A stretch of 64,000 nt of DNA from Oscillospiraceae bacterium (GTDB taxonomy: Bacteria; Bacillota; Clostridia; Oscillospirales; Acutalibacteraceae): assembly GCA_031288555.1 (NCBI GenBank), contig JAITRE010000001.1:1-64000 (forward strand), in the 5' to 3' direction. Positions 24,528-64,000 of this stretch are shown piece by piece; position 1 is the stretch's first letter, and every line of letters begins with the position of its first letter. Position numbers and translations under genes: made by a program. The notes below the pieces were generated by a model. The model worked only from the letters and a program-made list of their open reading frames with translations, had not been told where the DNA came from and did not search any database.

Positions 24528-24594
24528 GCCCGTGTAGCTTATCTGAGTAGAGCGTTGGTAAACAAAGGCGTCGGTGCAACTCCGTCCAGGGGCA
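24528..24594 (+). ncRNA. tRNA-like element lacking a usable anticodon arm
   Basis: 67 nt that fold as a cloverleaf. The acceptor stem GCCCGTG pairs with CAGGGGC (6 of 7 pairs, one G-G). The D stem is GCTT/GAGC, with T and A at positions 8-9 as in tRNAs. The T arm GTCGG/CCGTC has one T-T mismatch and a 7-nt loop TGCAACT. The central arm is only TTG-GTAAA-CAA, 11 nt instead of 17, so no normal anticodon loop exists. No CCA is encoded, and the D-loop GG and T-loop TTC are altered. It is either a tRNA pseudogene or a tRNA-shaped leader RNA. It lies 30 nt before the zinc-ribbon gene, downstream of the strong promoter. Confidence 0.6.
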
Positions 24595-31239: not shown

Positions 31240-31298
31240 AAAATAAATGTTGACACGTTTATATATACACATTGTTGTTGAATTTTTTTCTAAATAAT

Positions 31299-31424
31299 TT
31301 ATCAACAATTGTAGTTTAAAATATTTGCAACTAAATTTAGGCTTTATATTTTGATTTTATCAACATTTTCAACAGAGTTTTAAACAGTTTCAACCGAGTT
31401 TTCAACAAAAACGTTTAATCAACA
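31299..31424 (+). repeat. Cluster of seven DnaA-box-like 9-mers with a 21-nt period
   Basis: All are in the same orientation: TTATCAACA at 31299 and 31357, TTTTCAACA at 31366, TTTTAAACA at 31378, GTTTCAACC at 31387, TTTTCAACA at 31399 and TAATCAACA at 31416. Spacing in the core alternates 9 and 12 nt, so a 21-nt unit (two helical turns) is repeated. TTATCAACA differs from the consensus DnaA box TTATCCACA at one base. Confidence 0.6.
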
Positions 31425-31689
31425 GTAATTACAAAATGTATTTGGATACTCAGTAATTTAGACAAAACACAAATTTTTTGAAAAACTAAATAGTTTTTTT
31501 AAAAAAATAATTTGGTTTTGTCTTTTAATAAAAGATTAACTTGAAAAAAATAATATAATTAAATTGTTAATTTTTGCTAAAAATTTTAATAATATATTAA
31601 GAAAAATAAAATATTAACTAAAAATTGATAAAAATATAGAAGTTGTTCAAAAAACTTATTTTGGTTTCGGCTTAATAATTTATGGTGGC

Positions 31690-62707: not shown

Positions 62708-63826
62708 TTAATTTTCTTGAGCTTCGGGTTTTATCATCACCGGCAAAACCAAAAACATGAAATTCTCGCCATCTTGTGGAAGTATTTTTATGGGCGCAAG
62801 CGCTCCTGAAAAGAGCATTTGAATTACATCTCCTTTTGTGTTTCTGAGCGCATCTATTAAATATTTACTGTTTAAACCTATTTCAAGATTGTCTCCGTCT
62901 TTTTTTACTAAAATCTCATCGTTTGCCCTACCGCAACTTGTGTTGCAAGAAACTTTTAATTTGCTGTTTTGTAAAATAAGTCTAATCGGATTTTTTGAGT
63001 TGTCGGTCGCCACCAAAGAAACCCTTTCGATTGCACCTATCAATTTATTTGTAGACACGAAAACCTTGGTTAAATGGCTTTTGGGAACGCTTGATTTATA
63101 ATCAAGAAAACTTCCTTCTATAAGCCTTGAAACCAAATTATACTTTAAAAAACTAAACAGCGCGTGGTTTCTACCAACAGACAACAAAACCTCTTCTTTT
63201 TCTGGCAAAAGCTTTGATATTTCTGCCAAAACTTTTCCCGGAACAATAAAAGAAAGTTTTTTATCGTTTTTTATTGTTTCTTCTCTTGTCGCCATTCTAT
63301 ACCCGTCAACCGAAACAAGTTTTAAGCTATTTTTTTCTACGTCAAACAGCGTTCCTGTGTAAACCGGGTTTGAATTTGTGTTGCTTGGAGCCACAGCAAA
63401 CAAAGTTTGTTCTATCATGCTTTTTAATTCTTGACCTTCAATTGTTATCTTTTGCGGATTTTCAACTTGGGGTAATTTTGGGTATAAATCAGCACTCATT
63501 CCTGTTATTGAAAATTTACTTTGGCAGCTCGTTATGTTCGCAAGAAGATTTTCGTTAACCTGCACGTTTATTTGTTCGCCAGAAGCTTTTTTGGTTATAT
63601 CTGAAAAAATTTTTGCGCCCAATATAATTTCTCCTTCTTTTTTAACTAAGGCCGGTATTTGTGTTGTTATCCCAAACTCTAGGTTGTACCCCCTTAAAAA
63701 AAGTTTGTCGTTTTCTGCTTTTAGAAAAATACCTTCAGGTACATTTGAAAGTGGCTTTATGGGCGCTGCTTTTCCAACCGTTAAAACCGCATGTTCTAAG
63801 CTTTGTTTCTTGCATTTAAACTCCAT
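62708..63826 (-). CDS. dnaN: DNA polymerase III beta sliding clamp
   Basis: A 372-residue clamp with the expected three repeats: start MEFKCKKQSLEHAVLTVGKA, GTLFDVEKNSLKLVSVDGYRMA in the second domain, and the C-terminal segment that ends in LVLPVM. It tethers polymerases to DNA as a dimer ring. AGGAG precedes ATG. Its upstream region (63827-64000) carries DnaA-box-like sequences and TAG repeats, and dnaA should lie just beyond the window edge. Downstream, recF is absent. Confidence 0.97.
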   Translation of the reverse strand: MEFKCKKQSLEHAVLTVGKAAPIKPLSNVPEGIFLKAENDKLFLRGYNLEFGITTQIPALVKKEGEIILGAKIFSDITKKASGEQINVQVNENLLANITSCQSKFSITGMSADLYPKLPQVENPQKITIEGQELKSMIEQTLFAVAPSNTNSNPVYTGTLFDVEKNSLKLVSVDGYRMATREETIKNDKKLSFIVPGKVLAEISKLLPEKEEVLLSVGRNHALFSFLKYNLVSRLIEGSFLDYKSSVPKSHLTKVFVSTNKLIGAIERVSLVATDNSKNPIRLILQNSKLKVSCNTSCGRANDEILVKKDGDNLEIGLNSKYLIDALRNTKGDVIQMLFSGALAPIKILPQDGENFMFLVLPVMIKPEAQEN

Positions 63827-63861
63827 TTTAAAAACTCCTTGTAAACTTTTGGTTTGTTATT

Positions 63862-63882
63862 TTGTTGAAAAGTTTTCAACAA
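63862..63882. promoter_or_regulatory. Palindrome of two inverted DnaA-box-like sequences upstream of dnaN
   Basis: TTGTTGAAAA and TTTTCAACAA flank one G. Each arm contains the 9-mer TTTTCAACA, two mismatches from TTATCCACA. A close copy of the left arm recurs at 63967-63986. The site lies between dnaN and the expected dnaA. Confidence 0.55.
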
Positions 63883-63941
63883 TCTGGTCTTTGGTGTGTT
63901 TTTTAAAAAATTTTTTATATATTTAGAATAGGTTAGATATT

Positions 63942-63977
63942 TAGTAGTAGTAGTAGGGGTTGTTAATTTGTTGAAAA
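63942..63977. other. Probable origin unwinding element (TAG repeats, G-run, DnaA-box-like 9-mer)
   Basis: Five TAG trinucleotides (63942-63956), a G run to 63959 and the 9-mer TGTTGAAAA (63969-63977, the complement of TTTTCAACA). Read from the minus strand the order is box, C-rich spacer, then CTA repeats. This is the arrangement described for bacterial DnaA-trio origin elements. Confidence 0.55.
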
Positions 63978-64000
63978 GTTCTCAAACGCCACATAAATTC

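Follow-up and report, generated by a model that had tools for sequence, protein, structure and literature searches.

Here we describe a phased array of seven DnaA-box-like 9-mers, all on the + strand within 126 nt (positions 31299-31424), in the interval between spoIIIAH and spoVAD of an Oscillospiraceae bacterium (G000, the genome under study). From its sequence and from that of its relatives, we consider it likely that the array is a DnaA-box cluster outside oriC, one that would once have stood at a DnaA-controlled promoter and would now serve at most as a site for titrating DnaA or damping initiation. Put in terms of function, its role is very probably to control replication by binding DnaA, and not to switch sporulation. 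DnaA-box clusters outside the origin have been studied in depth in Escherichia coli and Bacillus subtilis; we found no account of how such clusters spread and evolved in this part of the Clostridia, and literature searches on a DnaA regulon in Firmicutes and on DnaA boxes at mraZ yielded nothing relevant. All positions are those of the window, the whole 64-kb stretch of DNA that was analysed (C9:1-64000); the assembly to which it belongs amounts to 1.03 Mb in 32 contigs and is 96% complete.

A phased array with a conserved core

The sequence-only reading of this DNA had reported seven 9-mers in one orientation at 31299-31424, their cores alternately 9 and 12 nt apart so that a 21-nt unit repeats, and these coordinates proved exact. 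All seven boxes are present. Conservation in the two congeners compared (G002 and G003) does not extend to the outermost two, at 31299 and 31416; the conserved core is confined to 31357-31407, where five boxes occupy 51 bp in the order TTATCAACA-TTTTCAACA-GAG-TTTTAAACA-GTTTCAACC-GAG-TTTTCAACA. The starts of these core boxes are 9, 12, 9 and 12 nt apart, which makes the 21-nt unit equal to two helical turns, and Tandem Repeats Finder reports the same period of 21 for 31362-31407. The first core box, TTATCAACA (31357-31365), is identical in G003 and reads CTTTCAACA in G002, while the second and the fifth, both TTTTCAACA (31366-31374 and 31399-31407), are invariant in the three species. The third box, a degenerate TTTTAAACA (31378-31386), is degraded in G000 alone, both congeners having TTTTCAACA at this place, and the fourth, a weak GTTTCAACC (31387-31395), reads GTTTCAACG in G003. 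As for the outer boxes, TTATCAACA at 31299-31307 corresponds to TTACTAACA in G002 and G003 and lies within the right arm of a small inverted repeat (31271-31288 / 31292-31309), and the weak TAATCAACA at 31416-31424 likewise has no conserved counterpart in the alignment of these congeners.

The array follows spoIIIAH in both congeners, and its conservation there is uneven. Across the three species the core is 78% identical, and the phased triplet within it is identical in 28 of 30 columns (93%), against 41% and 24% in the flanks. A genome-wide count of TTWTCAACA, which the earlier reading had proposed as a check, showed the single word to be common: the window has 24 copies, where 5.45 are expected, and the genome 167, where the reversed word has 101. 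Four exact copies fall within the 126 nt of the array, where the maximum in 300 Markov-3 simulations of the 64-kb window was two. The array is thus set apart by its clustering only, not by the presence of single TTWTCAACA. A search of the genome for three phased TCAACA returned, besides the array, the dnaA-dnaN spacer and one repeat in two copies near 88 kb of contig C16, and a search with the triplet pattern described below found no second copy in G000 besides the array. The repeat on C16 (C16:87932-88393; TCAACAGCTTCAACAAAGTT..) has its two copies 414 nt apart and possibly lies within a repetitive gene.

The same boxes at the replication origin

The 9-mer TTTTCAACA had also been noticed three times in the presumed dnaA-dnaN spacer, and these copies are found in the part of the spacer that falls within the window (63827-64000), at 63863 (-), 63873 (+) and 63969 (-). 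The whole spacer (C9:63827-64173) holds seven TTWTCAACA, so that the box used at the oriC of this organism is not clearly different from that of the array. Both flanking genes are confirmed by NCBIfam, dnaN at 62708-63826 and dnaA just past the end of the window; domain IV of dnaA lies at C9:64252-64455, the array at 31.3-31.4 kb is about 33 kb from dnaA, and dnaA, dnaN, gyrB and gyrA span 57.6-65.6 kb. Read on the - strand, the spacer presents TTTTCAACA, a C-rich stretch and then the trio TACTACTACTA (TACTACTACTACTA), the DnaA-trio being a run of five TAG at 63942-63956 beside the TTTTCAACA box, and this is the layout of box, GC cluster and DnaA-trio described for Firmicute origins (PMC7561715). 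The TAG run together with its box (63940-63980) is a clean oriC landmark in a little-known lineage, and TTATCCACA occurs only three times in the whole genome. Near the origin there is also a 1470-aa ORF on the - strand (L004:4348-8760, which is C9:67348-71760) that begins with a Nif11-type-leader-like start (..LSDDKLAEITGGGF) and runs on into a long proline-rich coiled protein, an odd fusion.

Whether the letters of the array are those of a DnaA box can be judged from the family as a whole. In an unbiased enrichment of 9-mers across 90 dnaA-dnaN spacers of the family, made without reference to the array, the words at the top were TTTTCAACA, present in 39 spacers against 2.95 expected, TTTTCCACA, in 34 against 1.55, and the DnaA-trio CTACTACTA, in 27 against 0.05. 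At position 6 of TTWTCNACA the same spacers have A 87 times, C 68 times, G three times and T twice. From this enrichment and this usage it follows that the array is written in the family's own origin letters. TTWTCAACA differs from the classical TTATNCACA. The arrangement recurs as well, since a phased triplet with starts at 0/9/21 lies within 13 of the 90 spacers and in none of the shuffles; same-strand boxes in these spacers are most often 21 or 9 nt apart. The choice of letter could not be traced to the protein: the recognition residues of DnaA had no significant association with the box letter (p = 0.21), and the residues at the position of E. coli D433 vary among the DnaAs without tracking it. 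Compared genome by genome, the use of A or C at the origin and in the array is modestly correlated (rho 0.49, or 0.45 allowing for GC; n = 23).

Phased triplets in the family, order and class

The triplet takes the form TCMACA-YTTTCMACA-GRG-TTWTCMACA. A search with the pattern TCMACAYTTTCMACAGRGTTWTCMACA, allowing up to two mismatches, found it in 85 of 120 genomes of the family, 128 of 197 of the order and 27 of 196 of the class, and the reversed pattern had no match in any genome listed at these three levels. Because the search pattern was derived from the array, the family and order searches are not independent evidence; only the 9-mer test at the origins and a test anchored on a protein, given below, are independent of it. 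The relatives are mostly incomplete assemblies whose gene contexts come from automatic ORF calls, and the main neighbour names were checked by NCBIfam or Pfam, with ogg and the U32 peptidase below curated cut-offs and zapA weak.

We inspected 95 loci, five of which lie in the dnaA-dnaN spacer. At 28 of the 95, the array is followed on its own strand by a small conserved ORF that starts with MIKGVN and is called so here, the gene on the opposite side often being ogg or DUF6062, and further loci lie at dut, at the U32-peptidase gene, at zapA and mreB, at mraZ-rsmH, and at thrS, dus or fba. A DnaA-trio occurs within 250 nt on the 3' side of all five oriC arrays and of two of the 90 others (a count made with a loosened pattern; the strict one missed four of the five oriC trios), and therefore the dispersed copies are not origins. 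When loci were chosen by the MIKGVN protein only, at least three near-boxes on the same strand were found in the 400 nt upstream at 21 of 29, where shuffling gave 0.88, and spacings of 12, 21 and 9 dominated among the near-boxes of these 29 loci. In many relatives a gene starts some 100-370 nt downstream of the array, in a fixed orientation, and such arrays probably regulate the adjacent promoter.

The MIKGVN protein itself (L231-L260 and other loci of the family) is about 90-110 aa long, is encoded in 86 of 120 family genomes and matched no Pfam family; its gene often stands between ogg or DUF6062 and rlmB or DUF6512, usually with the DnaA-box triplet upstream. By eye, we also noticed a TTTACATAA / GTTTACATAA-like sequence to the left and TTATGTMAAC to the right of several family arrays (L068, L069, L070, L075 and others), and the inverted pair GTTTACATAA / TTATGTMAAC around the boxes may perhaps mark the sites of a second regulator.

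Relation to known DnaA clusters

A DnaA-box cluster is taken to be at least three boxes at a mean distance below 100 bp, in the definition cited in PMC7561715; the array has its five core boxes outside the dnaA region, in the letters used at oriC. What links arrays of this type to clusters at which binding has been demonstrated is their position in other Clostridia. Outside the order, 15 of the 20 class-level loci lie directly 3' of tsaD (gcp) and one lies at jag-trmE; for each of TsaD, MnmE and Jag, the identity of a single example was confirmed. Strong binding of DnaA at the gcp-ydiF and jag-trmE clusters is established in B. subtilis (PMC4447404), and this co-location is, by analogy, the strongest outside evidence that such arrays would bind DnaA. 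It is the array type that shares these sites with DnaA-bound clusters, not the spoIIIAH locus. With the B. subtilis gcp-ydiF cluster matched by its place to the clostridial tsaD loci (L263-L266, L268-L273, L278-L282, L284-L287 and L298), a DnaA site 3' of tsaD is apparently common to Bacilli and Clostridia. A reading of the single class-level matches as copies of oriC was rejected, the sites being tsaD and jag-trmE. Together, the oriC 9-mers of the family, the triplets in its origin spacers and the tsaD and jag-trmE sites lend strong support to the proposal of the sequence-only reading that the array is a putative Bacillus-like DnaA-box cluster away from oriC.

The likeness has its limits. The clusters at gcp-ydiF and jag-trmE likewise have several boxes packed into a small intergenic interval away from oriC, and gcp-ydiF lies, as does the array in G000, between the 3' ends of two genes. 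However, the array in G000 is built of TTWTCAACA and not of TTATNCACA, has spoIIIAH and spoVAD as its neighbours, is predicted to be bound, and has a rigid 9/12 phasing. A parallel of function only is offered by datA and DARS of E. coli, non-coding DnaA-box clusters that adjust DnaA activity; their partner sites are those of IHF and Fis. Compared with the dnaA-dnaN spacers of oriC2 type in the Clostridia and the family (PMC7561715), the array has the same 9-mers and, in the relatives with a phased origin triplet, the same 0/9/21 arrangement, but it has no adjoining DnaA-trio and is not beside dnaA. Relatives with the array upstream of a gene resemble DnaA-controlled promoters such as that of B. 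subtilis sda (PMC4447404), whereas in G000 there is neither a gene downstream on the + strand nor the start of a sporulation gene.

The locus in the genus, and alternative readings

Profile matches confirm that the array lies between spoIIIAH (PF12685; 30625-31239, +) and spoVAD (TIGR02845; 31690-32709, -), each of which has its 3' end towards it. An inverted repeat at 31460-31523, with arms at 31460-31479 and 31504-31523 that fold into a stem, is likely a two-way terminator between these convergent genes. Upstream of the array, alignment with the congeners picks out a promoter-like TTGACA - 17 nt - TGTTGT (31250-31278, +), which reads TTGACA - 17 nt - TGTTAT in G002 and G003 and may be the relic of the promoter of a lost downstream gene; a sigma-70 consensus and terminator scan returned nothing clearly above chance and did not pick up this element. 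Between 31240 and 31690 the + strand has no ORF of at least 40 aa, so no gene starts downstream of the array in G000. This strongly reduced genome keeps the sporulation genes spoIIIA, spoIID, spoVAD, spoVB and spoVS. Elsewhere in the window, 24528-24594 has a tRNA-like Rfam match (36.6 bits) without an ARAGORN call and may be a tRNA that has diverged or is decaying.

In G002 and G003, the array is followed by a DUF6512 gene, and in five more distant relatives (G114, G042, G022, G122 and G102) the order is array - MIKGVN - DUF6512, which makes the array of the genus most simply the same cluster minus MIKGVN. A search of G000, within the completeness of its assembly, found neither MIKGVN nor DUF6512; without them the array stands alone where two genes end, and it probably descends from a promoter under DnaA control. 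The neighbourhood of spoVAD is not conserved in relatives, and the array was traced through its motif and spoIIIAH instead. It is possible, if somewhat doubtful, that the array is a mere relic, the former DnaA operator of the MIKGVN/DUF6512 promoter that still can bind DnaA but is useless and decaying. Such a fading operator agrees with the gene orders just given and with the promoter-like element ahead of DUF6512 in the congeners, and since box 3 of G000 is already changed it fits almost as well as a titration site; against it are the conservation of the core far above its flanks in the three species, in an otherwise reduced genome, and the failure to find a second copy of the pattern in G000.

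The sequence-only reading had further suggested that the array might couple replication to sporulation gene expression. This is unsupported, because the array lies past the 3' ends of both spo genes, because its place beside spoIIIAH is seen in the genus of G000 only, with unrelated neighbours elsewhere, and because arrays also occur in genomes without a detected SpoVAD (G008, G010, G014 and G018). A related idea, that the sporulation regulator Spo0A binds the array and controls spoIIIA or spoVAD, draws on the sporulation genes at both sides and on the resemblance of Spo0A boxes (TGTCGAA) to DnaA boxes (PMC5295017), but it is very improbable: TGTCGAA is absent from 31299-31424, the 3' position and the arrays without SpoVAD count against it too, and elsewhere the arrays stand beside dnaN, tsaD, mraZ, dut and ogg. 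It is also very improbable that the array is a tandem repeat without meaning or encodes a structured RNA, for which one could cite the promoter-like element upstream, the hairpin downstream and the AT-rich, low-complexity DNA; there is no Rfam match, the fold z-score is -0.48, and both sequence and spacing are conserved across the order with zero matches to the reversed control. Least credible of all is an origin of replication, whether a second or a former one: the array has the box triplet of its relatives' oriC but no DnaA-trio around it and no switch in GC skew (negative on both sides except at the + strand spoIIIA operon and other + genes), and dnaA, dnaN, gyrB and gyrA lie at 57.6-65.6 kb.

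Mechanism and significance

If the array is, as we favour, a DnaA-box cluster outside oriC, its head-to-tail boxes would be occupied by neighbouring DnaA molecules, most likely ATP-bound, lined up along a single helical face, and the same binding would be expected where related genomes have a triplet of identical spacing between dnaA and dnaN. Ancestral genomes would have had the cluster within the promoter region of MIKGVN, with DUF6512 as the next gene, and there DnaA could tie transcription to the state of replication. In G000, with both genes gone and the cluster left between the ends of spoIIIAH and spoVAD, it may titrate or buffer free DnaA after the origin region has been replicated, as has been proposed for the B. 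subtilis clusters. No gene is left downstream of it, so titration or buffering is the most that the array can do; this role is reached by elimination and is much less certain than the binding of DnaA. The joint deletion of six extra-oriC clusters in B. subtilis leads to early initiation (Okumura et al. 2012, as cited in PMC5295017), and in that account the effect is strong only with all six removed; a lone array of some five boxes may therefore have no measurable influence on the level of free DnaA.

A single observation has thus been extended to a fixed arrangement of boxes that roughly two in three of the order's sampled genomes have, and to recurring loci near cell-cycle genes. Tentatively, and with somewhat less than even confidence, we suggest a network of DnaA clusters throughout the order: a rigid, head-to-tail 0/9/21 triplet kept in oriC and at about one to five further sites per genome, beside genes of DNA repair, nucleotide sanitation and cell division and beside MIKGVN, with one cluster, 3' of tsaD, common to Bacilli and Clostridia, and with the cluster outliving its gene in tiny genomes. 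With its gene-less copy, this 1-Mb genome provides a natural test of the reason for which such clusters are retained, transcription or the control of DnaA. If it is true that the cluster outlives its gene in tiny genomes, this would point to a role in setting the level of free DnaA, and not in transcription.
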